Assembly: GCA_016196035.1 (NCBI GenBank)
Contig: JACPYM010000135.1
Location: 1-64,000, forward strand
Direction of reading: 5' to 3'
DNA length: 64,000 nt
Source of the DNA: Acidobacteriota bacterium
GTDB lineage: Bacteria > Acidobacteriota > Blastocatellia > RBC074
The notes under the pieces were generated by a model. The model did no database searches, was not told the origin of the DNA, and saw nothing but the letters and a program-made list of their open reading frames with translations. A program made the translations under genes and the position numbers. This document shows, piece after piece, positions 9,774 to 56,664 of the stretch. The first letter of the stretch is position 1. Every line of letters begins with the position of its first letter.

Positions 9774-9788
9774 GCGTCTAGTAGACGC
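9774..9788. promoter_or_regulatory. Candidate operator palindrome
   Basis: GCGTCTA-G-TAGACGC is a perfect 15-bp odd palindrome 50 bp upstream of the receptor start at 9724, in the 134-bp gap after the GntR/FCD gene. FCD-type regulators bind short palindromes in such positions. Linking this site to that regulator is inference. Confidence 0.4.
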
Positions 9789-9858
9789 AACGAGATGTGT
9801 CTCACAAGGTTATTGAATTGAGAGCGGTTTATCCCAGCAATGGACTAGCTGGACTTTG

Positions 9859-33030: not shown

Positions 33031-33177
33031 CATTCAAGCAAATGTTTTGCGGTTTGGCGCCGGAGGCGCTACGGATATTAGCCGGTGGTTCCGTTCGGCT
33101 CCACTGTCCCTTCGGGACGCATTTCGGAAATTCTTTTTCTTGAAACCTATGGCATCACCCATGAACGGAGAAATCAG

Positions 33178-36409: not shown

Positions 36410-36440
36410 AAAACCCGTGTGAACTGTGGCAAAAATACTT

Positions 36441-37283
36441 ATGGAAAACTCTGCGACTTTTGTCCCTGTTCCTACGCCTGACCCACAAGACATTCATTCG
36501 CAAGAACGCGATTTGCGTTTTCATCCGAGCACAACTGTGCATCCGCGAAAGCTCACGTCTGCGCAAATCACCAAATTCAATACGGATGGATTTCTGACTG
36601 GTATTACGATTTTTGGCGCGCAGGAAATTAACGAAATTCGCTTATCCTTTGATAATTTGCTGGCGCAATATTTTGCGGCAGGAAAAGACAGCTATGCGAT
36701 TTCGACGGCGCATATGCGGCACGGCAAGGTTTACGATTTGCTCACGCACCCGCGCATCGTGGCGTATGTCAAAGACATTTTGGGCGAAAATGTAAGCGCG
36801 TGGGGATCGCATTTTTTCTGCAAAATGCCACGCGACGGCAAAAAAGTTTCGTGGCATCAGGACGCTACCTATTGGCCTTTATCGCCGTCCAAAGCCATCA
36901 CGGTTTGGCTGGCGATTGATGATGCCAATGTCGAAAACGCCTGCGTGCGTTTCATTCCCGGTTCGCATCATCACGGCGAATTGACGGCAAACATGCATGA
37001 AAACGACGAATCCGAAGTTCTCTATCAATCCGTAGCCGCCGCCGAAAATTTTGGTGAGCCCTTCGACAACATTCTGCAAGCGGGACAAATTTCGCTTCAC
37101 TCAGATTTGCTTTTGCACGGCTCCAAAGCCAATGAATCTGATCGTCGCCGTTGCGGGTTGACGTTGCGTTATTGCACAGCGGATGTGACGGCATATTTAG
37201 ATTGGCATGCGAAGGGAATTCTCGTCAGCGGCGTAGACCCGCGTGGGCATTGGGCAAATCCGCCGCGCCCGGTTGAGGATTAG
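36441..37283 (+). CDS. Phytanoyl-CoA dioxygenase-family protein
   Basis: 280 residues of an Fe(II)/2-oxoglutarate dioxygenase. The iron-binding HxD is in VSWHQDATYW, the distal His in ISLHSDLLLHGS, and an Arg that could bind 2-oxoglutarate in RRRCGLTLRY. The N-terminal segment (LTSAQITKFNTDGFLTGITI) is typical of PhyH members. It would hydroxylate an unknown small molecule in the cytoplasm. ATG at 36,441 is taken; GTG at 36,426 is possible. The gene is visibly AT-richer than the receptor before it, and it is flanked by a 20-bp direct repeat, so it may be an acquired cassette. Confidence 0.85.
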   Translation: MENSATFVPVPTPDPQDIHSQERDLRFHPSTTVHPRKLTSAQITKFNTDGFLTGITIFGAQEINEIRLSFDNLLAQYFAAGKDSYAISTAHMRHGKVYDLLTHPRIVAYVKDILGENVSAWGSHFFCKMPRDGKKVSWHQDATYWPLSPSKAITVWLAIDDANVENACVRFIPGSHHHGELTANMHENDESEVLYQSVAAAENFGEPFDNILQAGQISLHSDLLLHGSKANESDRRRCGLTLRYCTADVTAYLDWHAKGILVSGVDPRGHWANPPRPVED

Positions 37284-37461: not shown

Positions 37462-40033
37462 ATGCGTAGATACCAATGGATATTCCGCCTTGGCGGCTGT
37501 GCTGCTGTGTTCGTACTTACGGCGGCCATCGCGGTGCTGTGCGTCCGCGCCGCTATAGGTACGAATGTGATCGTACTCCCGGCTGGCGCAACGAATACTA
37601 AATATCAGGCGACGGTCGCGGACAATACGCTGATTGACGCCACGCAGTGGACCAGCACGGCGGTCGGAGCACACGTCTCCCAGCGGTACGACCTTCACTG
37701 CGGCAGATATTTCAGGGACAGGCACAGGGGGCGGAGGGAACAACATCGTCTGGCGGGGCGGCGTCATCAATGGATCAATCCCCACGACGTGGGATTGGCG
37801 GACAACGCATGACTCTCCGCATGGAGGAACTGGCATAAGAATTCAGAACAACGGTCTGGCGGAATGGCAATATCTCCGTGTCCACAACGTGGAAGACGCC
37901 ATGAAATCGCGTGAAGCTCCGGAGTACTCCAACACCGCGAGCTGGGTCGTGCGCGACTGCTATTTTACTGCGATCCGCGATGACGCAGTCGAGGACGACC
38001 GTTTCGAGCCGGGCACGGTGCAGGACTGCCTCTTCGATGGCGTCCACACTTTCATCAGCGAGCAGAATGAGAACGTCGGGACAAACAACCCCATCGGCCC
38101 CGCCGAAGACACCACGATCTATGTCAAGCGCGTCGCCGTGCGGCTTTACCCGACTAACGATACTAGCAACGAGACAAACAAGGGCGGCGGGAAATGGTTC
38201 AAGTGGCAGGGACGCGGAGTAGCCAACCACCGGCTCGCTGTGAGTGATTCGGTCTTCGCCGTCGGGACAATCCCGCGCGGCGGGTGGAAGAGCCTCGACA
38301 TGCCATCGCAACTAACTTGGGTCGGCACGAACAACTTCATCCTCTGGCTGGGCGCTCCGGGCGGTTACGGCGGCCCGAAGCCCGCTACAGTAACGTTTCT
38401 CGAAGGCACAGCCGCCAGCAACAAGTGGATCAAGGTTCGCAACCAATGGCTGACCAGTCACGGGCTACCGGCGCAATCCTTCGCCGCTGACTATAACCCG
38501 CACACAGCACCCCTTCAGCAGATTCCGGTCTCAGCATCGCCCAACGGCAGTAGTAGCGCCACCGGCAACACTGCTAACAAAGGGCCGAACGTCGTGCTGA
38601 TCTATGCTGACGACCTGGGGTACGGCGATCTTTCAGCGTATGGCGCAACCGCTGTGCAGACGCCGCACATGGATCGGCTCGCCCAGGAAGGCTTGCGTTT
38701 TACGGACGCGCACGCGGCGGCAGCAACTTGCACACCGTCGCGTTACGCCTTGCTCACGGGCGAATATGCGTTTCGCAAAAAAGGGACGGACATTTTGCCG
38801 GGCGATGCGGCGCTCATCATCGAACCGGGACGCACCACGCTGGCTTCGCTGATGCAGAAAGCAGGCTACACGACAGGCGTGGTCGGCAAATGGCATCTCG
38901 GTTTGGGGCCGCAGGGCGGGCCGGATTGGAATGGCGAAATTGCGCCGAGTCCGAATTATATCGGCTTCAACTACTCGTTCATTATGGCGGCAACTGGTGA
39001 CCGCGTGCCGACCGTGCATGTCGAAAACAACCGCGTCGTGGGCCTTGATCCGGCTGACCCGATCAAAGTGGATTACCGCAAACTGATTGGCGATTGGCCG
39101 ACGGGCAAAGCGAATCCTGAGTTGCTGAAGATGCGTCCGAGTCACGGTCACGATATGACCATCGTCAACGGCATTAGCCGCATCGGCTATATGACCGGCG
39201 GCAAAGCCGCGTTGTGGAAGGACGAAGACATGGCCGATGTCTTCACGAGCAAAGCGGTGGCGTTCATCGAGCAGAACAAAGCCAAACCATTCTTCCTTTA
39301 TTTTGCGCTCCACGACCCGCACGTACCGCGTGTGCCGCATCCGCGCTTTGTCGGCAAGACGACGATGGGGCCGCGTGGCGATGCGATTGTGCAAGCGGAT
39401 TGGTGCATCGGTGAAATTCTCGCGGCGCTGGATCGCTTGCATCTGGCGAACAACACCATCGTCATCTTCACCAGCGACAACGGCCCGGTCGTGGACGATG
39501 GGTATCAAGACGACGCCGTGACGAAGCTCGGCAATCACAAGCCAGCGGGGCCGTGGCGCGGCGGCAAGTACAGCAACTTTGAAGCGGGCACGCGCGTGCC
39601 GCTGCTCGTTCGTTGGCCCGGACAGGTAAAGCGCGGCGTATCGAATGCGCTCGTGTCACAGATTGATTTTCTGGCCTCGTTCGCGTCACTCACCAAACAA
39701 TCGCTCGCGGCACAAGATGCGCCGGACAGTTTCGATGTGCTGAAGGCGTTGTTGGGCCAGGCCAAAACCGCCAACACTGGACGCCAAGCACTGATCGAAC
39801 AAGCCAGTGCGCTCGCGTTGCGGCAAGGCCAGTGGAAATACATCGAACCCGGCAGCGGCCCCAAAATGAATAAAGACACCAACACCGAGTTAGGTAACGA
39901 TCCCGCGCCGCAGCTTTACGATCTGGCTGCCGATCCCGGCGAAACCAGGAATGTCGCGGCGCAGCACCCCGCCCGCGTGCAAGCGATGGCGGCGGAGTTG
40001 CAGCGCATTCGACAATCAGGACGCAGCAGGTGA
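37462..40033 (+). CDS. Exported beta-helix/arylsulfatase fusion with N-terminal frameshift
   Basis: The long frame 37,634-40,033 joins two domains. Residues about 30-290 look like a right-handed beta-helix (GTGIRIQNNGLAEWQYLRVH; ASWVVRDCYFTAIRDDAVED; GTVQDCLFDGVHTFI). After a Ser/Asn-rich linker comes a complete sulfatase: PNVVLIYADDLGYGDLSAYG (metal Asp pair), CTPSR near residue 365 (Cys converted to formylglycine), GYTTGVVGKWHLGLG, and FTSDNGPVVDDGY. The signal peptide (LGGCAAVFVLTAAIAVLCV) starts at 37,462 in another frame. Dropping one C of the CCC run at 37,679-37,681 joins them as HVSSGTTFTAADISG. Target is probably a sulfated polysaccharide; the fusion is unusual. A likely activating enzyme of the formylglycine type begins at 63,826. 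No clear ribosome site is seen. Confidence 0.85.
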
Positions 40034-40386: not shown

Positions 40387-41823
40387 ATGAAATTTGCTTC
40401 ACGCACAATCACCCAATCAATTCTGCTGATCTGTCTTTGTCTGCTCCTACTGCTGTCAGTCAATGCTCAGCAGGCAAAGCCAGCTACCGACCGACAGGCA
40501 TCCGCTATAGCTGGAAAACCCGATGTCAATTTGCTGCCAGAGGCGCTGCGCGAACGCGGGCAGAAACTGCTCAACCAGAAAGACGAACTGAAGCGCACCA
40601 AGCTGACCGGAGAGTTGCTTGCCGCTGACCCCAGAGCCACGCTCGATTTCATACTGGCACTGTTTGCCACCGACCCGGCGGTGGCGGTGCGGCGCGTCAT
40701 CCTTTACGAACTGGGCAGGCGGCCCGCTGTCAGTTCCAACCCGCGTTTTGTGCAGACGCTGGAACGCTGTGTGACGACTGAACCTGATGCTGAAGTCGCC
40801 GTCTCTGCACTCGATAAATTGCGCGCGCACCGGATGAGGGAGATGCGCAAGCTGCTCACGCAGCGTCTCGAAGCCGCACGGCAAAAGAATGATGACGCGG
40901 CATTCAAGGTGTTGGCGCAGGATGATGAGCGTTGGATTTCGCTGGTCAACGGCACGATGCTGCCTGCTTTCATGCGCACGCCGCCGCCGCTCTTTGCGTT
41001 GAAAGAGGGCAGCCAGACGGTGCGCGTGTTCAGCTTCGGCGATTTCGGCAACGGCGCGCCGGAGAACCACAAGCTCGCGGGCGCAGAGCAGAAACAGGTC
41101 GCGGCGGCGATGCTGCAAGCGCATCGGCAAACGCCTTTCGATTTCGGTCTCACCGTGGGCGACAATTTTTACCCCGATGGCATGGAGAGTCCTGCAGACG
41201 AGCGCTGGCAGACGCAATGGCGTGAACTCTACGATCCGCTCGGTGTGAAGATTTATGCCACGCTGGGCAATCACGACTGGCATGCGGCGGACAGCCCCGC
41301 CGCCGAGTTGCTCTACACGCAGCAGAGCGCAAGCTGGCGCATGCCCGCGCCCTACTTCACCTTCACGGCTGGCCCGGTGCAGTTCTTCGCGCTCGACACG
41401 AACGAAGTTTCAGAAGCGCAGTTGCTCTGGTTGCAGGCTGCGCTCAAGCAGAGCCGCGCGCGCTGGCGTGTGGTCTACGGCCATCATCCGATTTATTCGG
41501 GCGGCCAGCACGGAGTGAGTCAGATATTGCTCAAGCGCCTGCTGCCGTTGCTTGAGGGCCGCGCGGACATATACCTGGCCGGTCACGAACACGACATGCA
41601 GCACCTCAAACCCGCCGACAGCCAAGTGCATTTCTTCGTCAACGGCGCGGGCGGCGCGACCATTCGCACCACCGGAGAAAAGCCGAACTCGCTGTTTGCG
41701 CTGGGCGGGACGCACGGTTTCGCCACGCTCGAAGCCAACGCGAATACGCTGACGGTGAAATTCATCGGAACAGATTTGAAGACCTTGTACGAATACACGC
41801 TGAGCAAGAACGGTGCGCCATAG
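40387..41823 (+). CDS. Secreted metallophosphoesterase (purple acid phosphatase-like)
   Basis: 478 residues. Signal peptide (SILLICLCLLLLLSVNAQ), an N-terminal helical, HEAT-like stretch (about residues 45-170) and a calcineurin-type phosphoesterase domain. All blocks of the dimetal site are visible: FSFGDFGNG, TVGDNFYPDG, TLGNHDWH, YGHHPIYSGG and AGHEHDMQ. It would release phosphate from extracellular or periplasmic esters. ATG at 40,387 is preceded by AGAGGA at 12 nt. It is separated from the sulfatase by the nested inverted-repeat element; the two may act on the same polymeric material, but that is inference. Confidence 0.88.
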   Translation: MKFASRTITQSILLICLCLLLLLSVNAQQAKPATDRQASAIAGKPDVNLLPEALRERGQKLLNQKDELKRTKLTGELLAADPRATLDFILALFATDPAVAVRRVILYELGRRPAVSSNPRFVQTLERCVTTEPDAEVAVSALDKLRAHRMREMRKLLTQRLEAARQKNDDAAFKVLAQDDERWISLVNGTMLPAFMRTPPPLFALKEGSQTVRVFSFGDFGNGAPENHKLAGAEQKQVAAAMLQAHRQTPFDFGLTVGDNFYPDGMESPADERWQTQWRELYDPLGVKIYATLGNHDWHAADSPAAELLYTQQSASWRMPAPYFTFTAGPVQFFALDTNEVSEAQLLWLQAALKQSRARWRVVYGHHPIYSGGQHGVSQILLKRLLPLLEGRADIYLAGHEHDMQHLKPADSQVHFFVNGAGGATIRTTGEKPNSLFALGGTHGFATLEANANTLTVKFIGTDLKTLYEYTLSKNGAP

Positions 41824-41930: not shown

Positions 41931-43514
41931 TTATCCGGATGCCAATCTATAGGTGATGGCGCGCTGAAGCGCGATCTTCTTTCCCTTCGAGCGCGCATCG
42001 GCGTCAGCGCGCAGCACGATTCTGAGGGTGTGCGCGCCGTGTTTGAGGCCGTAAACGTGCCACAGCGCGTTGTCGTGTGTGCGTTCGATGATGAAGGCAT
42101 CGAGTTGCCCGGCCTTTTTGCCATCAAGGTAAATATCGGCCCGTCCACCGTCCTGCGAGAACTCGCCGACGAGCGCCAAGGCCACGCCATTGAAGTTGAG
42201 CGAGACTTCCGCGCCCGCGCCGTGCGCCGCTTTGCCGATGATCTTTTTGTCTTTGCCAACCGTGTCGTCCACCCACGCGCCTTTCCATTGCCACGCCGCG
42301 TCATCGAATTTGATGAGCTTGTCGGGTACGCCCGGATTCCACTGTTCCAGTTTCCAGGGCTTGGGCTGTTGCGGCGGGATGCTCACTTCAGCGTCAGTGA
42401 CCTTACCGCCCGCCATCTCGATGACCTTCAGCGCCCGCTTGACCGTTGATTCCGTGATCGTATTGAACGAATAGTTGGTGTAGTCGAATTTCTTGTCAGC
42501 GATGGCGGCGATGCCGGATTTCCATCCATCAGGAATTTTGCCGTAGCCCAGCATCACACCCAGCACGCCCGCCGCGCTTGAAGGATTGCAATCGGAATCC
42601 TGCCCGGCGCGCGTCGAAACATCCAGTGTCCGGGCGAAATCGCCTTTGCCATACAACAACCCAAGCGCGACATAAGCGCCGTTCAGACGCGCGTCAATAT
42701 TGAACGGAGCATTCGCGCCATCCGGGCAGACATCATTTTTATCCCACTTGTCTTCAAGCAACTGCCAGGTCTTTTTCCAGTCGTCAGGATGCTGCGCCGA
42801 CCAATCCAGCACGTCACGAATCACCTTCGCATAACCGCTCTGCGCCGGAATACTCTTCAACCCCAGTTCGACTACTTGGCGCGGATCGTTTTCAAAGAAA
42901 GCCGCCGCGTACATCCCGCCGAAAAACATTCCGCCATACACGCCGTCGCCGTAATTCATGACGTGGCCGACGCGGTCTGCGTATTTGTTCGCTTCCTGCG
43001 GCAAGCCCGGCGTCATCATGCCGATGAAGTCGGATTCGATCTGGAAATCAATGTCGTTCGCGTGAATGTTGTACTTCGGATGCCCTGACCACGGAGCCTT
43101 GATACCCTGATTGAGCAAGCGCCGGCCGCCCGCGTTCGCATGCCAGAGGTGATACTTTGAATCCTTGAAAGCCTCGCCGTACTGTTCGCTGGTCGCGTCG
43201 AGGCCGACGCGATCCATCACTTCCGTAAAGGTCATCTCGACGTACAGGTCATCCTGCACAATTGAGTTCGAGACCATCTCCGGTTTCCATTTGATCTCGC
43301 CTTCGTTGATTTTGCCGTTGGATTTGAATTCAGTCGGCGCGCCGAATGAAACGCCGATCATCTGTCCGGCCCAGCCGCCGCGAATTTTATCTTCCAGAGT
43401 TTGCCGCGTCAGGCTACGCGCCTTAACACCGCTGCTGTTGTTTGCTCCAACAATCTGTAAGGCAATGCCGGTGATACTGACCAGCAATAACGCAATGATG
43501 ATTCGTGTCCGCAT
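41931..43514 (-). CDS. Exported ADP-ribosylglycohydrolase-family protein with C-terminal beta domain
   Basis: 527 residues. Signal peptide (IIIALLLVSITGIALQIVGA), then an ADP-ribosylglycohydrolase fold: DKIRGGWAGQMIGVSFGAPT, a QDDLYVEMTF metal-site segment, MNYGDGVYGGMFFGGMYAAA, and GQDSDCNPSSAAG with Mg-binding acidic residues. From about residue 385 a separate beta domain follows (WNPGVPDKLIKFDDAAWQWK; GAEVSLNFNGVALALVGEFS), resembling a carbohydrate-binding or galactose-binding jelly roll. Export and the added domain suggest that it cleaves an N-glycosidic ribose compound outside the cytoplasm rather than ADP-ribosyl proteins. It is the last gene of the operon with ribokinase and sugar transporter. 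AGGA precedes the ATG. Confidence 0.85.
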   Translation of the reverse strand: MRTRIIIALLLVSITGIALQIVGANNSSGVKARSLTRQTLEDKIRGGWAGQMIGVSFGAPTEFKSNGKINEGEIKWKPEMVSNSIVQDDLYVEMTFTEVMDRVGLDATSEQYGEAFKDSKYHLWHANAGGRRLLNQGIKAPWSGHPKYNIHANDIDFQIESDFIGMMTPGLPQEANKYADRVGHVMNYGDGVYGGMFFGGMYAAAFFENDPRQVVELGLKSIPAQSGYAKVIRDVLDWSAQHPDDWKKTWQLLEDKWDKNDVCPDGANAPFNIDARLNGAYVALGLLYGKGDFARTLDVSTRAGQDSDCNPSSAAGVLGVMLGYGKIPDGWKSGIAAIADKKFDYTNYSFNTITESTVKRALKVIEMAGGKVTDAEVSIPPQQPKPWKLEQWNPGVPDKLIKFDDAAWQWKGAWVDDTVGKDKKIIGKAAHGAGAEVSLNFNGVALALVGEFSQDGGRADIYLDGKKAGQLDAFIIERTHDNALWHVYGLKHGAHTLRIVLRADADARSKGKKIALQRAITYRLASG

Positions 43515-43550
43515 ATTTTTTTCCTAGATAGCTTGTCTGACGTTAGGGCG

Positions 43551-43592
43551 CTTTTGAAAAAACGGCTTTGGTTTTCGCCGCGCTAGCGGCGC
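43551..43592. repeat. Fragment related to the 40-kb inverted-repeat element
   Basis: CTTTTGAAAAA.CGGCTTTG followed by TTTTCGCCGCGCTAGCGGCG is shared with 40,095-40,136, with small differences. It lies in the 98-bp gap between the YjbR and ADP-ribosylglycohydrolase genes. Confidence 0.7.
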
Positions 43593-43612
43593 GAATAGAA
43601 ACTCTTTGCGGA

Positions 43613-43969
43613 TCAAAGACTGAGTTCCGCTCGTATTTTCCTTGTTAATTTTTTGACGGCTAAGTTATACGAATTATCAATCCATTCCAGTAATAACTTA
43701 TCAGGAATCGTCTGATCCATAATAATTGTCGTCCAATGTCTGTCGCTAAAATATGGCGGCTTTTGCAGCGCCGCATACTCTGTCCGCAATTCATCAATAG
43801 TTAGCGGATCACAGCGTATGCCGATGCTTTCAAAGGAATCTACCTCAGTTACGGCAAACATTTTTCCTGCAACCTTGAATACCAACAAGCTAGGCAAGTT
43901 TGGAAAAGGAAACCCTTCCGTAACACATTTTTTACCCAGACAATAATTTCGATATGATTCAATATCCAT
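43613..43969 (-). CDS. MmcQ/YjbR-family protein
   Basis: 118 residues of the MmcQ/YjbR double-wing fold: IESYRNYCLGKKCVTEGFPF, LLVFKVAGKMFAVTEVDSFE, IGIRCDPLTIDELRTEYAAL, PPYFSDRHWTTIIMDQTIPD and a final helix (LLEWIDNSYNLAVKKLTRKI). The family is DNA-binding-like in fold but of unclear function. The gene is clearly AT-richer than its neighbours, as is the NTF2-like gene 12 bp upstream, suggesting they arrived together. Confidence 0.85.
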   Translation of the reverse strand: MDIESYRNYCLGKKCVTEGFPFPNLPSLLVFKVAGKMFAVTEVDSFESIGIRCDPLTIDELRTEYAALQKPPYFSDRHWTTIIMDQTIPDKLLLEWIDNSYNLAVKKLTRKIRAELSL

Positions 43970-43981
43970 CGTAAATCGGTC

Positions 43982-44341
43982 TTAGGCATCCCAAAAGAAG
44001 CCTGTCATTTTCGTCAAACGTCTATCAGTTGCGTACTCCCCAAAACTTGCCCCTTTACTAAGTATTTCACCTTCGACGTTCACCATATTCCAATGTGCCA
44101 AACTTTGGTTATGATGTTCCCTAAAAGCTGTCGTAACAAATTTGGCGCCGGGAAAGCCTTGTTGAAATTGCGCCATGTAATTTGAAAGGCTTTGATAACC
44201 GACCGTTTGAATGTTTGGATCTGTGTAGGTGCAATCCGAATTCAGGTTCTGTTCCAATGTAGTTTTTCTTGTTTCAGCATCGGTGTCAGACCACGATGAC
44301 GTATAAGCTTCCCAAGTATCTTGATGTGTTTTATTTCCCAT
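43982..44341 (-). CDS. NTF2-like/SnoaL-type protein
   Basis: 119 residues with an NTF2 fold: TWEAYTSSWSDTDAETRKTT, LEQNLNSDCTYTDPNIQTVG, YQSLSNYMAQFQQGFPGAKF, then AHWNMVNVEGEILSKGASFG and a closing RLTKMTGFFWDA strand. Members bind small hydrophobic ligands or act as isomerases; no catalytic dyad is obvious. Low GC relative to the flanking ribokinase gene. It starts 36 bp after ribokinase and precedes the YjbR gene by 12 bp. Confidence 0.75.
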   Translation of the reverse strand: MGNKTHQDTWEAYTSSWSDTDAETRKTTLEQNLNSDCTYTDPNIQTVGYQSLSNYMAQFQQGFPGAKFVTTAFREHHNQSLAHWNMVNVEGEILSKGASFGEYATDRRLTKMTGFFWDA

Positions 44342-44377
44342 GTTTATGTCTATCTCCCTCGATTTACAATTTTCTTC

Positions 44378-45292
44378 CTATCTGGTTGATAAAAACGCTT
44401 CGATCTCCTGGCGATATGGCGCGGATGGTTGAGCGCCCAATTTGGTTACCGAGAGAGCCGCTGCCGCATTGGCAAAGCGCACCGCCTCTCGCAGAGGCTT
44501 CTTCTCAGCCAGCGCCACCGCCAAAGCGCCGTTGAAGACATCGCCAGCCGCCGTCGTATCTACCGGCGTGACGTTGAAGCCAGGAACGATGCCGCAAAAA
44601 TCATCGCTGGCGACAAACACTCCTTGTGCGCCCAGTGTGATCAGTACCGTTTCCACTCCCCGGGCACGCAGCGCCGTGGCTGCCGTCGCGGCGCCTGCTT
44701 CATTTTCAATGGTCACGCCCGTCAGTAATTCCGCTTCTGATTCGTTGGGCGTGAGGATTGAAACGTAGCGGAGAATCTCATCATCAAGCGGTTGCGCTGG
44801 CGCGGGGTTGAGTATCACCGTCGCCCCGTGAGCAGCGAGCCGCACCGCTGCCTTTACAGTCTCAATCGGCGTTTCTAACTGGATGAGCAGAACTCCCGCC
44901 GAAGAAATGACTGCTCGTGTTCTCTCAATATCCTCTACTGACAACTTCGCATTCGCCCCGGAAGCCACGCCGATGCTGTTCTCGCCATCACTGCCGACAA
45001 AGATCAGCGCGACCCCCGAAGGTGCGTCTGCATCTTTGATGATGTAGTCCACATTGATGCCGTCGTCGGCAAACCCCTTGGTTGCCTGCTCGCCGAATAA
45101 ATCATTGCCAACGCGCGCAATGAAAGCCACCTGTCCGCCGGAGCGCGCTGCGGCCACTGCCTGGTTCGCGCCTTTCCCACCCGCCGCCATCAAGAAGTCT
45201 CCGCCGATGATGGTCTCGCCCGGTTTGGGGATTCTCTGCATTTTGATGATCATGTCGGTATTGGAACTGCCGACTACGACGATTCTTTCCAC
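44378..45292 (-). CDS. rbsK: Ribokinase
   Basis: 304 residues of the PfkB family: VVVGSSNTDMIIKMQRIPKP at the N-terminus, GGKGANQAVAAARSGG (sugar-binding signature), ILNPAPAQPLDDEILRYVSI, TPNESEAELLTGV and the C-terminal PfkB signature DTTAAGDVFNGALAVAL with catalytic Asp and anion hole. It phosphorylates ribose to ribose-5-phosphate in the cytoplasm. GTG at 45,292 is preferred because GAGG lies 7 nt upstream; TTG at 45,298 is too close to that site. The sugar transporter ends 13 bp upstream on the same strand, and an ADP-ribosylglycohydrolase lies in the same operon, which fits scavenging of ribose. Confidence 0.92.
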   Translation of the reverse strand: MERIVVVGSSNTDMIIKMQRIPKPGETIIGGDFLMAAGGKGANQAVAAARSGGQVAFIARVGNDLFGEQATKGFADDGINVDYIIKDADAPSGVALIFVGSDGENSIGVASGANAKLSVEDIERTRAVISSAGVLLIQLETPIETVKAAVRLAAHGATVILNPAPAQPLDDEILRYVSILTPNESEAELLTGVTIENEAGAATAATALRARGVETVLITLGAQGVFVASDDFCGIVPGFNVTPVDTTAAGDVFNGALAVALAEKKPLREAVRFANAAAALSVTKLGAQPSAPYRQEIEAFLSTR

Positions 45293-45305
45293 AGCCAAAC
45301 CTCAC

Positions 45306-46310
45306 TTATGCAAATCTTGAAAAGATGATCAATCCCAGGCCAACGATGAAGGACGCAAACATCACGGCGAGCAAACGGTTGGTGCCAGCGGGCGCTTGCT
45401 TGAATTCCTTCCACACGAAAACACCCCAGCAGGCGGCGACCAGCGTTGCCCCTTGTCCCAAACCATAAGAGATGGCAAACCCCGCGGCTCCCGATGCGAT
45501 GATGCTGAAAGACATTCCGAGTCCCCAGATCATCCCGCCAAGGGTGCCGATCCCATGCAAGCGCGCGTTGCCTTTACTGAAATAGTCGCGATAAGAAACC
45601 GGCTCGCCAACAAAAGGCTTCATCATCACGATGCTGTTCCACAGAAAATTCGACAGGAACAAACCCAGCGAGAAAATCACCACAGCCGTGTACGGGCTTA
45701 GTTTTCCCGCTTCAAGGTGAGAAAAATCGGCGGACATCGAAGCCGCGACGAAGCGATAGAAAAAGCCCATCAGCACACCGGCCAGGATTGATAGAACACC
45801 GCCCAGGCCAGAGACTTTCTTGCCTTGCGATGGCAGTTTTTTGTAAGCCATCGCGTCAACGATGATTGCCACCACCACTGCCGCCACACCGGTGAACAGC
45901 AAGTAAGGATTGCCAACCGGAGCCGCAACGTAATTAGTGACGACTCCCAGCGCGAGTGCCAGTCCCACGCCGATGGGGAATGCCACGGCCATGCCGGCAA
46001 TATCAATGGCCGCGACCAAAAGTATGTTCGAGACGTTGAAAATCACTCCGCCCAAAAAGGCCGACCACAATGCCTGATTGCTGGCCTGATTGAGATCGGG
46101 CAGGAAACTGCGCCCGGCAGACCCCAAACTTCCCATCGTCAGCGCCAGAATCAACGCGAACAACAAAACGCCGATGGCATAGTCCCAGTAAAAAAGCTGA
46201 AAGCGCCATTCTTTGCTGGCAAGTTTCTGTGTATTCGCCCACGAACCCCAGCAGAGCATGGTGATAAGACACATCACGACTGCCAGGGCATAAGATTCGA
46301 TGATGATCAT
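45306..46310 (-). CDS. GRP-type sugar transporter (ribose/glucose uptake-like)
   Basis: 334 residues with about 10 membrane segments in the DMT/GRP arrangement: LAVVMCLITMLCWGSWANTQ at the start (the W-G-S-W motif of GlcU/RbsU-type carriers), VFPIGVGLALALGVV-like middle and GLGQGATLVAACWGVFVWKE near the end. A GAGGAG site precedes ATG at 46,310 and overlaps the stop of GH16. Directly followed by ribokinase, so ribose is a reasonable substrate. RhaT-like rhamnose transport is the main alternative. Confidence 0.8.
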   Translation of the reverse strand: MIIIESYALAVVMCLITMLCWGSWANTQKLASKEWRFQLFYWDYAIGVLLFALILALTMGSLGSAGRSFLPDLNQASNQALWSAFLGGVIFNVSNILLVAAIDIAGMAVAFPIGVGLALALGVVTNYVAAPVGNPYLLFTGVAAVVVAIIVDAMAYKKLPSQGKKVSGLGGVLSILAGVLMGFFYRFVAASMSADFSHLEAGKLSPYTAVVIFSLGLFLSNFLWNSIVMMKPFVGEPVSYRDYFSKGNARLHGIGTLGGMIWGLGMSFSIIASGAAGFAISYGLGQGATLVAACWGVFVWKEFKQAPAGTNRLLAVMFASFIVGLGLIIFSRFA

Positions 46311-46324
46311 TTTCGGGCTCCTCG

Positions 46325-47146
46325 CTACTTTCCCTGTTGATAAACACGGACGTAGTCAATCTCCATGCGCTGCGGGAAGATCGTGTCGTCAACACCTTCG
46401 GCGCCACCCCAAAACCCGCCAATCGCCAGGTTCAAAACCAGATGGAAGTTCTGATCGAACGGCCAGGCTTCCCAGCCGCTGCCTTCGTTCTTGTCGCTGA
46501 AGATTTTGGTGTCATCAATGTACACATCCAGCTTCTCCGCGCTCCATTCCAGCGCGTAGGTATGAAAGGCGGTTTGCGCATCCGGCACTTTCAGCGTGGC
46601 GGTTTTTTGATTTTTGCGCGGCCAGTTATAAGCCTTGGTATGCGTCGAAGCGTGAATAACACCCGGGTCGTGGCCGACGTGTTCCATGATGTCAATCTCG
46701 CCATTATCCGGCCAGTAACGGTCGCTGTAGCTTGTCTTTGAGGGTAACATCCAAATAGCAGGCCAGGTGCCGCGCCCGGCAGGAAGCCTGGCCCGGATTT
46801 CAAAACGCCCGTATGTCCAGTCGCCTTTTCCCGCTGTTACCAAGCGAGCCGAGGTGTAGTTATTCGAATTAATCTTTTCCTTGCGGGCTTCGATAACAAG
46901 GTTACCGCCCTCAACACGCGCGTTAGCTAGCTTGCCGGAGGTGTAATACTGAAGCTCGTTATTCCCCCAGCCATCGCCACCGACTTTGTATTCCCACCTC
47001 TTTGGGTCTGGCAAGCCTTTGTAATTGAACTCATCCGCCCAAACCAGTTTCCAGTCCGCCCGACGCGCAATCTGCACAGGACGATTTTGTCCGCTTCCGA
47101 CTAACAGCAAGTTAAACGTCAAAAGCAAAGTCAGTGCTATTTTCAT
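46325..47146 (-). CDS. Secreted glycoside hydrolase family 16 (beta-glucanase/laminarinase-like)
   Basis: 273 residues. After a short signal peptide (IALTLLLTFNLLLVGSGQ) comes a GH16 jelly roll: WKLVWADEFNYKGLPDPKRW, YTSARLVTAGKGDWTYGRFE, GTWPAIWMLPS and the catalytic EIDIMEH (nucleophile E150, D152, acid/base E155), then HTYALEWSAEKLDVYIDDTK and a C-terminal MEIDYVRVYQ. Retaining hydrolysis of beta-1,3 or mixed-linkage glucan is the usual activity; the exact linkage is inferred. It follows a TonB receptor and precedes the sugar transporter by 14 bp. Confidence 0.92.
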   Translation of the reverse strand: MKIALTLLLTFNLLLVGSGQNRPVQIARRADWKLVWADEFNYKGLPDPKRWEYKVGGDGWGNNELQYYTSGKLANARVEGGNLVIEARKEKINSNNYTSARLVTAGKGDWTYGRFEIRARLPAGRGTWPAIWMLPSKTSYSDRYWPDNGEIDIMEHVGHDPGVIHASTHTKAYNWPRKNQKTATLKVPDAQTAFHTYALEWSAEKLDVYIDDTKIFSDKNEGSGWEAWPFDQNFHLVLNLAIGGFWGGAEGVDDTIFPQRMEIDYVRVYQQGK

Positions 47147-47266
47147 AACTTGATATAACTACCAGGATGAAACTTCGCGCGGGGAGCGCAGGTGGGAACG
47201 GACAACGCTGTAAGCTAACAGTCAAACGCCGAAGGAGCATCTACTCCTTCGGCGTTCGGTACTAAC

Positions 47267-50200
47267 TCAAAACTCGAACCGTACATGCCATTGCACGGTG
47301 CGATTCGGTCTATAACCGCCATTGGCAATGGCGCCGGAACCGGTACGATTTGTTAGCGGATCAGCCGCATTACCATTGACTAAGGTACTGCTGCCGGGGG
47401 CGGTGTAACTCTGAGAGAAGAAGTTAGTAAATCCGCCTTGAGTATGATTCAGGGCATTGAACGCATCAAAGCGCGCTTCAACCCTCATCTTTTCCCGGAA
47501 GTAAAGCTTCTTGGAAAGCGACATATCCCAGTTGTTGATCGGCGGCGCTTTGATCAGCAGTTTATCGCGGACTGTTTCCGTCCCCGTGCTGCCGACGCTC
47601 GGAGCCTGAAAAGCGGCAATGTTGTACCAATGAAAGTCATCTTTATTGGGTACTTTATTGGGGTCACCAATGAGCACGCAACGCGCGCTATTGCCGCTCG
47701 ATGAACCGGTCAGATTGACTGTGCCGTAGCCTGTGACGCCGCACGAAACCAGCTCCGGCTCACCTGATTGAAAACGGTAAATCCCTGAGAGTTGCCAGCC
47801 CTTGGTAACATATCCGAGGTAACGATTCTCCGTTAAACTTGGCAATTCATACACCCAGTTAAAGACAAAGTTATGAGTGCGGTCAAAGCTTAACCGCCCG
47901 TAGTTAATTTTGTCATTCTGGTCAATCCTGGCGCCATCTTGGTCGCCGGATGAAATGCCCCGCGCTAGGCTCCGGGTGTAATTTGCACTCAAGAGCAATC
48001 CTTTGGCAAAACGGCGATTCCCGGAAATTTGCAGCGAATGATAATTCGAGTTTTCCCTGAACTCTGTTAATGAGATGTCAGCAAATCCCTTGTATGGGCG
48101 GTACAAATTGGCAGGCAGTGCGTTAGAACCTGGTACTGTTGGATTCAAGGCCTTGGTGGGGTCTTGATTCACCGCCAAAAATGCCGAGCCAAATGGCGTC
48201 GAATTGATTGAACGAACGTGCGGTAAATGGTGTCCTTGCGAACCGACATAAGCAACATCGAGCACAGTATCAAAGGGTAGCTTGTACTGAATGCCGGCGT
48301 TATAGGAGTTGGTTGAAGGTATTTTGGCATTGAGTTCAATCGCCCTGACACTCGGCGGGTTAAACGTAGAAGTTGCGATGCTGCTGGTCAGTGTTTGCAG
48401 CAGGCCAAAGTCCAGGATGTTAGTAACCGTGGTGGGCGGGTTTTCGTTGTAGTCATAGACCAGGTTACCTTGCGGCCGGTCATAAAAAACGCCGAAACCG
48501 CCGCGCACAATCAGGTCGTGTTTACCTGTGACATCAAACGCGAAACCGAATCTTGGGGCGAACAGTGCCCCTTGATCCTTAGCCAGTCTTTTTGGAATTC
48601 CATTTTGCCCGGTAAGAAAAAGCCCGTTTGAAAGACCACCTGAGCCCGGCACGATTCTGCCCACAAAAACGGTATCAAGCAAAGTATTGGCTAAAGTGAG
48701 CGGAACGCCGGAAGCAAGCACAGCCGGATCAACCGCGCGCCGGGCAGAGGTTTGGCTGCCACCGGAGCAAGTCGCCGCGCCATTGATACAGACCGGCACA
48801 TACAGTCTGGGAGCGGCAGAAAGTTTGTATTGACTCGGATCAAAATTCGAAGCTGCCCCGCTGGCATCAAAGGCGGGCGGAAACCACGAGACGCGCATGC
48901 CATAATCGAGCGTAAAGCGCTTGCTGAATTTCCAGTTATCTTGCACAAACCCGTCAACATCGGTGTACTTGTAATTACCGAAGGTACTGGCCGAAGCTTG
49001 GGTGTAATTTGCATAAACACCCGTTAGCGCGTTTGAGAATCCCTGTTGTGTGTCAAAGGGATTATTGGCAGAATCCGAAAAACTAATACCGCCATTGAAT
49101 TGCACGCGGTTTGTTTGCTTCTTCTTCGCCCGTTCATAAACGCCGCCAAACTTAGTCACATGATCGCCCCAAACTTTAGACAGGTTTCCGCCAATATCGT
49201 CAGTCCTGCTTGAGTTGAGAAACGGACCATTGCCCACGCGGTAACTCGGGGTATTGGCAAGTCTGCCGCCATAACCAAGTTGACTCAGCAGGTCTTCTTG
49301 AACGGCATTCGGATAAATTATCGGGAGCGCGGAAAGCCCGGTTGCGGTTCTGGTGTAAGTGCCGCTCTCGGTTCTGGCCTCAATCAGGTTTTTACTGAAG
49401 CCGTAGGTGAATTCAACTGCCATTGTCGGGCTAAGCGTTCCATTGACCGTGCCGGCATAACTAATTCTGGGGGTGTTATTCTTAAACCCATATTGCACGA
49501 TGTTACCGCCCAGGATAAATCCAAGCCCGGCATAAGGCGCTAGCGAGCTATTCACGTTATTGAGCACCCGGCCGTTGATGCGCCAGTTATCATTGAAGTT
49601 GTAATCAACGCGAACCGTGTCGTTGCGCTCTTTGGTCGTATTCGAAACCTGATCCTTGAAATTGAAGTTCTCGCTGCCTACCGGGGTGTAATTCGGCAAG
49701 GGATACAAATTTAGAATCTTTTGCCCAAGCGCATAAAACCGGCTGGCCGGAATTTTCCCAACCACGCCGCCATCCGCGAAACAACCCGATGTATTGGCCG
49801 CAGTGCAAGGCTGATTCAAAGTGTAGTCTCTGATGTACGGGAAAATATTTCCGTTGCTGTCGCGCGACTGAGAGAAATCGCCGGCGCGTTCTAGCGCGGT
49901 CGGCACGCGAACGCGATTTTCGTTATTCGGAGTGATGCGGGGCGCCCATTCCTGATTCAGGAAAAAGAATAACTTCTTCTTCTCAGTATTGAAGAGCTTG
50001 GGAATATAAACCGGCCCGCCGATTGAGTAACCTTTTTCCTCTTGGTCTGTAATTGGCCGCGGGTTGTTGGTGGCGGGATTGTTTCTGTTATTTTGAAACG
50101 TGTTGGCATTCAGCCCAGTGTGGCGGCGGTAATAATAAACCGAACCGTGAAAAGCTTGTGACCCGCTGCGAGTAGTAGCAATAAATTGAGCACCCGAAGA

Positions 50201-50893
50201 GCGTCCATATTCAGGTTGATAGGTCGAAGTCAGCAGCTTGAATTCGCCAACCGCATCCAGCGGAATGCGCGAAAGCTCCGAATTGTTACCCACGTCAACG
50301 CTGGTGATGCCGTCAATCTGGACATTGTTTGAATTTAGCCGGGCGCCATTCACACTAAGGCCGCTGCTGGTACTGCTGTTACCATCTCCGGCACCATTAG
50401 CTACAACACCTGGGGCTAAAGTAGCTAGATTAATGTAACTTCGGGTTTTAACACCCACGTTGCGAATCTGTTCGCCTTGGATGGCAAATGACCGCTCGCC
50501 GCTATCGGCCTGGATATGCGTGGCTTCGCTGGTGACACTGACCGTTTCGGTGACCGCCCCAACTTCCAAACCTAAGTTGCCAAGTGAGAGCCTGTCGTTT
50601 GGAGTGAGTGTTACCCCTTTCCGCTGTTGTTTCTTGAAGCTCGCGGCTTCAATGCTCAGGGTGTAGGTTCCCGGTGGAACAATCGGAAAAACAAACCGGC
50701 CTTCACCATCAGTGGTGGCAGTCAGAGAATAGCTCTTGCCCTCTTCGGTAATGGTCACGGTGGCTTTTGCAACAGCGGCTTGTTGTGGGTCAACGACCGT
50801 CCCGGTAATCGAACCGCTGGTGGTTTGAGCCAAACCCACTCCCGTGCAGAGCACGACGAGCGAGATCAACATTGATAGCATTCTTAGACGCAT
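47267..50893 (-). CDS. TonB-dependent receptor, Oar-like
   Basis: 1208 residues. Signal peptide (RMLSMLISLVVLCTGVGLAQ), carboxypeptidase-regulatory-like domain (ITGTVVDPQQAAVAKATVTI), plug (SGLSVNGARLNSNNVQIDGI; GRSSGAQFIATTRSGSQAFH) and barrel ending VQWHVRFEF. The start at 50,893 is chosen for TGGAGG 7 nt upstream; the longer frame from 50,944 is not needed. It leads the operon with GH16, transporter and ribokinase, so uptake of the glucan or ribose-containing fragments made outside is the likely role. The gene is somewhat AT-richer than the receptors at 2-10 kb. Confidence 0.93.
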   Translation of the reverse strand: MRLRMLSMLISLVVLCTGVGLAQTTSGSITGTVVDPQQAAVAKATVTITEEGKSYSLTATTDGEGRFVFPIVPPGTYTLSIEAASFKKQQRKGVTLTPNDRLSLGNLGLEVGAVTETVSVTSEATHIQADSGERSFAIQGEQIRNVGVKTRSYINLATLAPGVVANGAGDGNSSTSSGLSVNGARLNSNNVQIDGITSVDVGNNSELSRIPLDAVGEFKLLTSTYQPEYGRSSGAQFIATTRSGSQAFHGSVYYYRRHTGLNANTFQNNRNNPATNNPRPITDQEEKGYSIGGPVYIPKLFNTEKKKLFFFLNQEWAPRITPNNENRVRVPTALERAGDFSQSRDSNGNIFPYIRDYTLNQPCTAANTSGCFADGGVVGKIPASRFYALGQKILNLYPLPNYTPVGSENFNFKDQVSNTTKERNDTVRVDYNFNDNWRINGRVLNNVNSSLAPYAGLGFILGGNIVQYGFKNNTPRISYAGTVNGTLSPTMAVEFTYGFSKNLIEARTESGTYTRTATGLSALPIIYPNAVQEDLLSQLGYGGRLANTPSYRVGNGPFLNSSRTDDIGGNLSKVWGDHVTKFGGVYERAKKKQTNRVQFNGGISFSDSANNPFDTQQGFSNALTGVYANYTQASASTFGNYKYTDVDGFVQDNWKFSKRFTLDYGMRVSWFPPAFDASGAASNFDPSQYKLSAAPRLYVPVCINGAATCSGGSQTSARRAVDPAVLASGVPLTLANTLLDTVFVGRIVPGSGGLSNGLFLTGQNGIPKRLAKDQGALFAPRFGFAFDVTGKHDLIVRGGFGVFYDRPQGNLVYDYNENPPTTVTNILDFGLLQTLTSSIATSTFNPPSVRAIELNAKIPSTNSYNAGIQYKLPFDTVLDVAYVGSQGHHLPHVRSINSTPFGSAFLAVNQDPTKALNPTVPGSNALPANLYRPYKGFADISLTEFRENSNYHSLQISGNRRFAKGLLLSANYTRSLARGISSGDQDGARIDQNDKINYGRLSFDRTHNFVFNWVYELPSLTENRYLGYVTKGWQLSGIYRFQSGEPELVSCGVTGYGTVNLTGSSSGNSARCVLIGDPNKVPNKDDFHWYNIAAFQAPSVGSTGTETVRDKLLIKAPPINNWDMSLSKKLYFREKMRVEARFDAFNALNHTQGGFTNFFSQSYTAPGSSTLVNGNAADPLTNRTGSGAIANGGYRPNRTVQWHVRFEF

Positions 50894-51212: not shown

Positions 51213-53567
51213 ATGGATGTTCGGCATTTAGAGTCGCTTAAACCGAAAAGATCAGACGTACTTTACGAATTTGGCCCGTATGTCGTAGACGTGGCGAAGT
51301 CTGTCTTGTTACGCAATGACGAGGTTGTGCCGCTTGGGTTGAAGGCTTTTGAGGTTCTGTTAGTGCTGATCCAGCACCACGGCCAGGTGGTCATGAAGGA
51401 CGAACTGCTCAGCCAGGTCTGGCCTGACACTGTCGTTGAAGAGAACAATCTGGCCCGCACCATTTCGGCCCTCAGAAAGGCGCTGGGGGAAAGCCTCGGC
51501 GCGCCGCAGTTCATTGCCACAATACCGGGGCGCGGCTATCGCTTCGTGGCCGATGTGCAGGAGGTCGAACATGTCAGCGAGCCCGTCCATCTGCCTTGGC
51601 AACCACGGTCAAACGGCCATTCAACTGCCCGTGATTTGAATTCGCCCAACGTCCCGGCCATTGCCGCTTTTGCTGATGAACGGCTGACCAAACAACTGCG
51701 CTATTACAAACTGGCGCTGGGAGCCGTGCTGTTTTTGCTGATTGCCGGAATCATGGCCGCGCTGGTGGTTCCACAACTTCGCCAACCGGCGCAGGTCTCG
51801 TTGCCACGCAAACTCTGGCAGTTGAGCTTCGACCCCGGTTTGGAAAGCGAGCCGACCTGGTCGCCTGACGGACGACTGATCGCTTACAGTTCGGATCGTT
51901 CCGGCAATTTTGACATCTGGGTGCAGCCCGTTGGCGAAGGCCAGCCTGTCCGCGTCACGACTTCAACAGCACACGACTGGCAGGCGGATTGGGCGCCCGA
52001 AGGCAATCGCCTCGTCTTCCGCTCTGAACGTGACGGCGGCGGGCTATACGTCGTGCCGGTGCTGGGCGGCAACGAACATAAGATTGCGTCTTTCGGTTAC
52101 CGCCCGCGTTGGTCGCCCGACGGCACGCAAATTCTGTTTTACAGCTCTATTCTGCGCACTAACACGGCGGAGATTCCCAAACTCTATCTCGTCGGGCTGG
52201 ACGGCAAACCGCCGCGCGAAGTGTTGACGGATTTTCTCACCGGATTCAAATCGTTCTGTGCGGCCTGGCATCCTGACGGTCAACGGCTCTCGCTGTGGGG
52301 AAATCACCTTAAACAAGGCAACGGATTCTGGACGATCCCGCTGGCAGGTGGCGCGCCAATCAAATCGGAGTTCACGGTGGCGGCGGCCCAACAGTTAAAA
52401 GAATCGGGCGTATATTTCAGTGGCTTTCAGTGGGCGTCTGACGCGGCGGCGCTCTATTTCGAAGGTGTTTCCGCGAGCGTGAAAAGCATTTGGAAAGTTG
52501 CCGTGGAAACAACCAGCCTGCGCTGGATCGCCGGCCCCGAACGCTTGACTGCGGGCGCGGGGTTAGACACAGATGTGGCGCTTTCGCGCAATGGCCGGAA
52601 TGTGGCCTTTACTTCCCGCATTGAGCAAACCCGCCTCTGGTCATTTCCCTTTAACGCCGCCACCGGGAAGCTCGGCAACGCTGGCCAACCCATCACTACG
52701 GCAGGCACGGATGCGTATTTCCCCGACCTGTCCGCCGATGGCCGCAAGCTGGTGTTTGTGACCAATCGCGCTGGCAAGCGTGAACTGCGCGTCAAGTCGC
52801 TCGCTGACGGCAGCGAAACGATTTTGATCACCGATGATTTATCGCGTTCGTCGCCGCGCTGGTCGCGTGATGGCAAACGGCTGGCGTACAGCCGTGAAAA
52901 TACGGCCAAATCGGTGAGCGCACAAAACCGTTGGGACATCGCCACCCTGCCGGTCGCGGGCGGCGACGAGCAAGTGCTGACCACGGCAGGCCCCTTGGTC
53001 GAACCGACCTGGGATTGGTCAACCGATGGCACACGTATATTAGTAGGCTTCATGCGCAGCACTCCGGTGCGCCGGTTGATCGGCACGATTCCGGTGTCGG
53101 CGGCCCCACACGCCGAAGCGCAAATGCATGTCGTCACGTCGCATCCGGACGAGAATCTCTATCAGGCGCGTTTTTCTCCCGATGATCGTTGGATCAGCTT
53201 TTGCACGGCCAAGATGAATCAAGCCGGCATCTCGACAATCTATGTCGTGCCGGCGGCGGGCGGTGAATGGACGCGCCTCACCGAGGGCCACAGCTTTGAC
53301 GACAAACCGCGCTGGTCACCGGACGGGCGTATGCTCTATTTCATTTCCAATCGCACCGGTTTCTTCAACGTCTGGGGCATCCGTTTCGATCCGGTCACGG
53401 GCCAGCCTGTCGGCGCGCCCTTCCGCGTGACTCCCTTTGACAGCCCAAGCCAGATGATTCTTGAGGACGTGCGAATCATGGAACTGGCGCTGGCGGCTGA
53501 CCGGCTAGTTCTGCCGTTGATGGAAGTCACCGGCAACCTCTGGATTCTGGAGAATGTCGGGCAATAA
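51213..53567 (+). CDS. CadC-like transmembrane regulator with TolB-type propeller
   Basis: 784 residues. An OmpR/PhoB-type winged helix is at about residues 17-115 (YEFGPYVVDVAKSVLLRNDE; LGLKAFEVLLVLIQHHGQVV; VVEENNLARTISALRKALGE; TIPGRGYRFVADV). A single membrane helix is at about 168-190 (LGAVLFLLIAGIMAALVV). A large periplasmic PD40/TolB propeller follows, with repeated WSPDGRLIAYSSDRSG, WSPDGTQILFYSS, WSRDGKRLAYSRE and WSPDGRMLYFISNRTG motifs. This is a one-component sensor. It is divergent from the receptor/GH16/ribokinase operon, its most likely target. No ribosome site is evident before ATG 51,213. The stop overlaps the next small gene by 14 bp. Confidence 0.9.
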   Translation: MDVRHLESLKPKRSDVLYEFGPYVVDVAKSVLLRNDEVVPLGLKAFEVLLVLIQHHGQVVMKDELLSQVWPDTVVEENNLARTISALRKALGESLGAPQFIATIPGRGYRFVADVQEVEHVSEPVHLPWQPRSNGHSTARDLNSPNVPAIAAFADERLTKQLRYYKLALGAVLFLLIAGIMAALVVPQLRQPAQVSLPRKLWQLSFDPGLESEPTWSPDGRLIAYSSDRSGNFDIWVQPVGEGQPVRVTTSTAHDWQADWAPEGNRLVFRSERDGGGLYVVPVLGGNEHKIASFGYRPRWSPDGTQILFYSSILRTNTAEIPKLYLVGLDGKPPREVLTDFLTGFKSFCAAWHPDGQRLSLWGNHLKQGNGFWTIPLAGGAPIKSEFTVAAAQQLKESGVYFSGFQWASDAAALYFEGVSASVKSIWKVAVETTSLRWIAGPERLTAGAGLDTDVALSRNGRNVAFTSRIEQTRLWSFPFNAATGKLGNAGQPITTAGTDAYFPDLSADGRKLVFVTNRAGKRELRVKSLADGSETILITDDLSRSSPRWSRDGKRLAYSRENTAKSVSAQNRWDIATLPVAGGDEQVLTTAGPLVEPTWDWSTDGTRILVGFMRSTPVRRLIGTIPVSAAPHAEAQMHVVTSHPDENLYQARFSPDDRWISFCTAKMNQAGISTIYVVPAAGGEWTRLTEGHSFDDKPRWSPDGRMLYFISNRTGFFNVWGIRFDPVTGQPVGAPFRVTPFDSPSQMILEDVRIMELALAADRLVLPLMEVTGNLWILENVGQ

Positions 53568-55703: not shown

Positions 55704-55806
55704 AGTTTGGCGGCCCGCTCCACTACCGCAAGCTGCCTGAATCCAACTCGTTGAGGTAGCGGGATCAGTACCTGTGAAGTTGTGCGGGAATGGAAACGAA
55801 GCAAAC

Positions 55807-55835
55807 TTTGTCCAACAGTCCGCGACATCTATAAT
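55807..55835 (+). promoter_or_regulatory. Candidate promoter of restriction gene
   Basis: A perfect TATAAT (55,830-55,835) stands 17 bp after TTTGTC (55,807-55,812). Transcription would begin near 55,842, only about four bases before the ATG at 55,846, so the nuclease mRNA would be almost leaderless. No ribosome site exists before that ATG. Confidence 0.5.
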
Positions 55836-55845
55836 CCGACGCCAT

Positions 55846-56664
55846 ATGGAAAATAAGAACGCAGCCGCGCAATTCCTCGAACTGCTCCAACAAGAAGCTG
55901 AGAGATTCAACTCCAGCGAGATGATGTCTACGCCGGATGGTGGTTGGACAGTCAAAGGGTTCATAGATGTTTTCAGGAACGTCTATACCATTTCCGGCGA
56001 CACCAAAGTTGTCTCAAAGCTGATTGAGTTGATGCTGTTTCCGCATTTCCTGGCTTTCGCTGACAAACACAACCTCAAAGTTATCCCTGCACCTGAGCAA
56101 AACTACTATCCAGATTTGACCTTCGTAGATAATGCTGGCCGCAAGTTCGCGCTTGATCTCAAGAGTGCCTACCGGATTGATGAGAACACCGTCAGCGGGA
56201 TGACGCTCGGTGCCTTCACTGGTTACTTTCGTGAGCGGCGCTCGGCCAAAAACATCACCTTCCCTTATGGCGAGTATGCTGGGCATTTTGTTTTAGGTGT
56301 CATTTACACGCGCGTCGCCATCAGACCCGATGAATTTAGGAGCCATACCCTTGATGAACTGGAAGAAATTCCTTCAGTCGTCAAAGACCTGCGCTTCTTC
56401 GTTCAGCCAAAATACCGCATCGCGCTTGATCGGCCTGGGAGCGGAAACACTAAAAACATTGGCGCGGTTGGCAAAACCGCTGCTTTGGTGAATGGCAATG
56501 GCCCATTTACGGATTTGGGTGAAGAGATTTTTGATGACTATTGGATGTTCTATCTGACCTCAGATATGGCGCGCAAAGCCGAGTTACCCAAGCCACCCTA
56601 CAACAATCTGCCATCCTATTTTGCGTTTAAGCAACCCCCAGCCAAATCTGGAGGTGACGAATGA
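55846..56664 (+). CDS. Type II restriction endonuclease, EcoRV-like
   Basis: 272 residues. The catalytic PD...DxK is D90 (YPDLTF), D104 and K106 (KFALDLKSAYR). Downstream the order of motifs follows EcoRV: TLGAFTGYFRE, KNITFPYGEYAGHFVLGVIY (EcoRV: KNIVYPFDQYIAHWIIGYVY), TRVAIRP, LDELEEIP and the recognition loop GSGNTKNIGA (198-207; EcoRV GSGNTTNIGS). Because the GSGNT loop that contacts bases in EcoRV is kept, recognition of GATATC or a close variant is predicted. The ATG at 55,846 is preferred to a longer frame from 55,774, which would include promoter sequence. The stop overlaps the methylase start by 4 bp. GC is lower than in neighbouring genes. Confidence 0.92.
   Translation: MENKNAAAQFLELLQQEAERFNSSEMMSTPDGGWTVKGFIDVFRNVYTISGDTKVVSKLIELMLFPHFLAFADKHNLKVIPAPEQNYYPDLTFVDNAGRKFALDLKSAYRIDENTVSGMTLGAFTGYFRERRSAKNITFPYGEYAGHFVLGVIYTRVAIRPDEFRSHTLDELEEIPSVVKDLRFFVQPKYRIALDRPGSGNTKNIGAVGKTAALVNGNGPFTDLGEEIFDDYWMFYLTSDMARKAELPKPPYNNLPSYFAFKQPPAKSGGDE

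Follow-up and report, generated by a model that had tools for sequence, protein, structure and literature searches.

We examined a locus in the genome of an Acidobacteriota bacterium (assembly GCA_016196035.1; 9.59 Mb in 139 contigs) that combines genes predicted to act in polymer uptake, glucan cleavage, and ribose utilization. The window, that is, the whole stretch of 64,000 nucleotides that was analysed, lies on a contig of 64.8 kb (JACPYM010000135.1; C135). Seven open reading frames run on its minus strand between positions 41931 and 50893. In the 5′ to 3′ direction they encode a TonB-dependent receptor, a glycoside hydrolase of family 16 (GH16), a permease, a ribokinase, a SnoaL-like protein, a YjbR-like protein, and a putatively exported protein with the ADP-ribosylglycohydrolase fold (41931-43514), for which ARH is used here as shorthand. 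The open reading frames and domain matches confirm the gene order given in a preliminary description of this DNA; the gaps of 12-120 bp stated there are right in the upper bound and wrong in the lower, because the gaps from the receptor to ARH are 120, 14, 7, 36, 12, and 98 bp. No SusD-like gene was found between or beside the seven genes. The permease, the ribokinase, and ARH constitute a conserved core, whose recurrence across phyla speaks against a chance grouping.

The ribokinase RbsK (44378-45298, minus strand, TTG start) exceeds the cut-offs of two NCBIfam models, with 398.8 bits for NF008353 (cut-off 341) and 372.5 bits for TIGR02152 (equivalog cut-off 299.65). The permease (45306-46310, minus strand) is of the GRP/ureide type (PF07168, 2.1e-23), and its relatives beside rbsK are annotated as 'GRP family sugar transporter'. 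We surveyed 30 acidobacterial permease loci, including that of the window, with flanks of 1.5 kb where the contig allows. A ribokinase lies within 1.5 kb of the permease in 24 of them and a nucleoside hydrolase in five, and genes for GH16, SnoaL, and YjbR are found near the permease in the window's locus only. At the acidobacterial loci L083 and L092, the permease is accompanied by TonB receptors, LacI, and nucleoside hydrolases. The ribose utilization (rus) locus BT2803-2809 of Bacteroides thetaiotaomicron has been published, and its permease RusT was proposed to import free ribose (PMC12596196). The ribokinase linkage and the RusT model therefore make ribose the probable cargo of the GRP permease. 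Matches of 54-60% to the Bacteroidota-type GRP permease were also seen in plasmid records labelled 'Escherichia coli' (CP054241, NZ_CP141089, CP088711, and NZ_CP126938; up to 4.9 Mb). Their annotation has no gene or only hypothetical proteins, and they are possibly mislabelled or contaminated.

ARH adjoins ribose genes in many independent gene orders in Acidobacteria, Verrucomicrobiota, Bacteroidota, and Neomarinimicrobiota. The orders observed are RbsK-permease-nucleoside hydrolase-ARH (L018 and L014), permease-ARH-RbsK (L016), ARH-permease (L013), sugar-binding protein-creatininase-ARH-permease (L087), and ARH-RBP-RbsK (L006). Genes for RbsK, RbsC, and a ribose-binding protein lie beside ARH at L010 and L011, and L081, from the same family as the window, has the order ribose-binding protein-ARH-nucleoside hydrolase-RbsC-type permease. 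Annotated genomes of Bacteroidota contain rbsK-ARH-nucleoside hydrolase-GRP transporter in Parabacteroides distasonis (NZ_OY725755), rbsK-ARH-GRP in Spirosoma, where the ARH frame is unannotated and was found by tblastn, and rbsK-GRP-ARH adjoining SusC/SusD in Flammeovirga. Ribose linkage was found for 8 of 19 close ARHs (about 49% identity or more) versus none of 20 more distant acidobacterial ARHs (Fisher p = 0.001; the group sizes were counted by hand). The view in the preliminary description of a SusD-less uptake operon tuned to ribose-bearing material, with a putatively exported ARH-fold hydrolase, is supported. The ARH beside the permease in genome G275 (L087:1113-2810) has a single in-frame stop within its tblastn match; the copy may have decayed, the sequence may contain an error, or the match may extend past the gene.

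ARH scores 108.9 bits against PF03747 (5e-31; curated cut-off 26.2 bits). A search of the PDB with the single ARH sequence gave no match; a profile of 39 sequences did match. The AlphaFold2 model of ARH has a pLDDT of 93.6. In this predicted structure, residues 35-365 match ARH3 (6g1p; Z 30.9, rmsd 2.8, 296 residues), and residues 396-523 form a carbohydrate-binding-type β-sandwich similar to the C-terminal part of BT_2959 (3nqh, Z 15.1). Sandwiches of this type occur in CE2/CEX esterases and in a xanthan-binding module. All relatives listed in the structural comparison have ARH-type or sandwich folds; this outcome rules nothing out. N-terminal hydrophobic segments suggest that both ARH and the GH16 protein are exported.

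The acidic residues E62, D88, D89, D306, and D308 are invariant across the 39 ARH-family sequences, and sequence alignment places them at Glu41, Asp77, Asp78, Asp314, and Asp316 of ARH3. Thr76 and Thr317 are further metal ligands in ARH3 (PMC8141533), and the hydroxyl ligands of ARH1 are Ser54 and Ser305 (PMC9738213). At these Thr/Ser positions of the ADP-ribosylhydrolases, ARH has Gln87 and Cys309. A second difference was found where the NGAAMR motif of E. coli YegU aligns with ANDIDFQIE in ARH; this stretch or a close variant of it is present in most ribose-linked ARH relatives. Loops of the NGAAMR type have a role in ADP-ribose binding. The differences in two metal-ligand positions and in this loop therefore make it doubtful that ADP-ribose, one of the substrates considered in the preliminary description, is cleaved. 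Although ARH is predicted to adopt the ARH fold and keeps the greater part of the metal site, it should not be filed as an ADP-ribosylhydrolase on present evidence, and the family name ADP-ribosylglycohydrolase is probably misleading for these exported enzymes.

The receptor (47267-50893, minus strand) is of the Oar type (OMP_b-brl_4, 1.8e-161; CarboxypepD_reg; Plug) with a predicted N-terminal signal peptide. Its family yields 173 matching stretches across the 9.6 Mb genome, some genes giving two, which indicates very many paralogues. Further stretches of the family lie inside the window at 2053-5373, 6362-9712, and 33166-36300. The best paralogue in the genome has about 49% identity, and its neighbours are genes for rhamnosidase, esterase, and PQQ enzymes. 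Because of the many paralogues and this setting of the best one, the cargo of the receptor cannot be read from its sequence. The receptor also resembles its paralogues in the genome more closely than it does the TonB proteins of L083, L092, and L013, and its placement as a ribose-specific branch is thus unsupported.

A perfect inverted repeat lies directly 3′ of the receptor gene (47227-47254, minus strand). The gap between the receptor and GH16 genes folds with a z score of −4.85, and none of 200 shuffled sequences folds as well as the native one. This strong hairpin has no U-run, it does not appear in the output of the scan for U-tract terminators, and its pattern occurs only once in the genome. 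It may be a transcript 3′ end or terminator, or a stem that stabilizes the receptor mRNA. The gaps of 7-120 bp would permit a single transcript from the TonB receptor to ARH, and the hairpin suggests a break or processing site within it.

The GH16 gene (46325-47146, minus strand) is the only one of its family in the genome. Its product is a laminarinase-like endo-β-glucanase (PF00722, 3.8e-23; 82.3 bits, cut-off 22) and has the ExDxxE catalytic motif, present as EIDIME within GEIDIMEH in the translation. The best PDB match, 3iln (342 bits), covers the whole catalytic domain; 3iln is the laminarinase of Rhodothermus marinus and is not known to be linked to ribose genes. Among 396 acidobacterial genomes, a GH16 relative is found in 86 and a permease relative in 40, and the two are adjacent in this genome only. 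The nearest other case is G301, in which a distant ARH (32%) lies about 9.6 kb from a GH16. A conserved co-adaptation of glucan and ribose functions was consequently rejected, because a GH16 near the permease or near a close ARH was found in no other of these genomes. A partial parallel is L021 (Chloracidobacterium UBA7659, 1-10154), a second case in which β-glucanase families adjoin the ribose core. Its order is ARH-RbsK-YHS-GRP permease, followed by an MIP channel (aquaglyceroporin), an FGGY kinase, two GH30 genes, the second assigned by clustering, and one GH3 gene.

The genes for the SnoaL/NTF2-like protein (43982-44341, minus strand; PF12680, 4.7e-4, under the curated cut-off) and the YjbR/MmcQ-like protein (43613-43969, minus strand; PF04237, 2.6e-21) lie between those of the ribokinase and ARH. 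Their GC contents are 41.9% and 39.5%, respectively, with a third-position value (GC3) of 0.38 in both, and the GH16, permease, ribokinase, and ARH genes have 53-58% and 0.63-0.71. Both are absent from the related loci examined. They look like a recent foreign insertion, and a role as functional members of the operon was rejected on the basis of their GC content and their absence elsewhere. The preliminary description had treated the glucan and ribose functions as one tuned system. That idea was not supported: a GH16 stands beside the core in a single one of the 396 acidobacterial genomes, the receptor belongs to a very large set of Oar-type paralogues, the hairpin lies between it and GH16, and the two inserts look foreign and do not recur.

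The preliminary description had called the mix of glucan and ribose functions unfamiliar, which needs correcting, since rus is published and rbsK-ARH-nucleoside hydrolase-GRP clusters exist in annotated Bacteroidota. The rus genes encode a ribokinase, a TonB-dependent receptor, SusD, DUF4969, a nucleoside hydrolase, and a DMT permease (PMC10434189). The operon in the window shares with rus, in one cluster, a TonB-dependent receptor, a ribokinase, a permease of the DMT/GRP class whose gene is linked to that of the ribokinase, and a hydrolase proposed to release ribose. This likeness is one of gene families. However, the receptor here is of the Oar type (OMP_b-brl_4) without a SusC/SusD pair, ARH takes the place of the nucleoside hydrolase, a GH16 is present, and the candidate regulator is different. 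The clusters of P. distasonis, Spirosoma, and Flammeovirga have similar core gene sets. In P. distasonis, the permease, ribokinase, and ARH are 60%, 52%, and 40% identical to those of the window, whereas the cluster adds a nucleoside hydrolase and lacks GH16, SnoaL, and YjbR. The E. coli yegTUV genes follow the same three-part logic, with a transporter, the ARH-family protein YegU, and the sugar kinase YegV (PMC10819704). However, YegU is only 16% identical to ARH, keeps the TDDT, NGAAMR, and GDTDT motifs, and has neither an export signal nor the sandwich domain. The ADP-ribosylhydrolases ARH3 and DraG share the fold and the acidic metal-ligand positions with ARH, but they are about 11-15% identical in structural alignment; ARH lacks their Thr/Ser ligands and NGAAMR loop, is putatively exported, and carries the additional β-sandwich.

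On balance, we consider it fairly likely that the operon serves ribose scavenging and works in a rus-like manner, built on an ARH-fold enzyme. The Oar-type receptor would bring material that bears ribose, or glycan material, through the outer membrane. ARH, kept near its substrate by the β-sandwich, would use a binuclear metal site to hydrolyse the C1 bond of ribosides outside the cell or in the periplasm and release D-ribose. The GRP permease would then move ribose through the inner membrane, and the ribokinase would convert it to ribose-5-phosphate, which would enter the pentose phosphate pathway. GH16 may be a lineage-specific addition upstream that cuts β-1,3-glucan, and it could be of benefit by supplying glucan sugar or by opening a polymer or biofilm that holds ribosides. 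SnoaL and YjbR would be passengers.

Several observations weigh against this proposal. No ribose gene was found in the stretch examined for 11 of the 19 close ARHs, several of whose contigs are short. The operon contains no nucleoside hydrolase, and the only PF01156 gene of the genome is on contig C95. Replacement of the Thr/Ser ligands by Q87 and C309 could mean that the enzyme is altered or inactive. The hairpin would cut off the TonB receptor, whose link to the remaining genes is one of position. An alternative reading divides the locus into two units, with the TonB receptor, perhaps together with GH16, serving glucan or another polymer, and an independent ribose core following it. We give this division a minor but real chance: the hairpin, the closeness of the receptor to its in-genome paralogues, and the lack of any other GH16 beside a ribose core in the acidobacterial genomes are in accord with it, whereas 14 bp separate the GH16 stop codon from the start of the permease gene, with no promoter-like site found between them, and other ribose cores adjoin TonB/SusCD genes (L083, L092, and L150) or glucanases (the GH30, GH30, and GH3 genes of L021).

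Two further alternatives concern the substrates. The permease might import intact nucleosides or ureides while ARH cuts another glycoside, for example an aryl or glycan furanoside. Ureide_permease is indeed the best Pfam family of the permease, the C-terminal sandwich is similar to the glycan-binding modules found in esterases and in a xanthan-binding protein, and many ARH relatives occur in non-ribose settings; nevertheless, the ribokinase linkage in 24 of 30 loci and the frequent adjacent nucleoside hydrolases favour the import of free ribose, and we regard this alternative as rather unlikely. A true ADP-ribosylhydrolase, which would act outside the cell and remove or salvage ADP-ribose from ADP-ribosylated proteins, NAD-related compounds, or poly(ADP-ribose), would agree with the PF03747 score, with ARH3 as the best structural match, and with the retention of all five acidic ligand positions. 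This possibility seems improbable given Gln and Cys in place of the Thr/Ser ligands and ANDIDFQIE in place of the NGAAMR stretch. Moreover, obtaining ribose from ADP-ribose needs a phosphatase or pyrophosphatase, and the operon has none; the nearest candidate is the metallophosphoesterase gene at 40387-41823.

The ribose-linked exported ARHs could be ribosidases of a family not yet described, in which the metal ligands are altered and ribose is released directly from ribosides, maybe from α-ribosides. We raise this only tentatively. ARH1 and ARH3 are specific for the α-anomer (PMC9738213), and α-ribosides are therefore considered for the ribose-linked ARHs. Such substrates, which may include α-ribazole, α-NAD fragments, and ADP-ribosyl remnants, would be out of reach of β-specific nucleoside hydrolases. 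Their use would explain why ARH and a nucleoside hydrolase lie side by side in Bacteroidota and at L081.

Upstream of the receptor, a divergent gene (51213-53567, plus strand) encodes a CadC-like winged helix joined to a TolB/WD40 propeller (Trans_reg_C, 1.1e-16; PD40, 1.1e-46), and its product is a candidate regulator of the operon. Downstream of ARH, the HEAT/metallophosphoesterase gene mentioned above is convergent. Elsewhere on the plus strand of the window, a TonB receptor gene (33085-36408) is followed by genes for a PhyH-family dioxygenase (36426-37283) and a sulfatase (37634-40033). At 55774-57605, an EcoRV-family restriction endonuclease (PF09233, 3.4e-99) is followed by a D12-class adenine methyltransferase; in this acidobacterium, the two make up an EcoRV-like restriction-modification pair.

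A literature search found no paper that discusses ARH in ribose loci, the primary rus paper being outside its reach. Variants of the rus locus in Bacteroidota reportedly include ARH genes. In that case, the link between ribose and ARH is already on record in that phylum, and what is new would be the form in Acidobacteria, the noncanonical active site, and the addition of GH16. The operon would extend rus-like ribose scavenging beyond Bacteroidota, with SusCD replaced by an Oar receptor, and it points to a widespread family of putatively exported enzymes whose genes accompany those of ribokinase and nucleoside hydrolase in several phyla.

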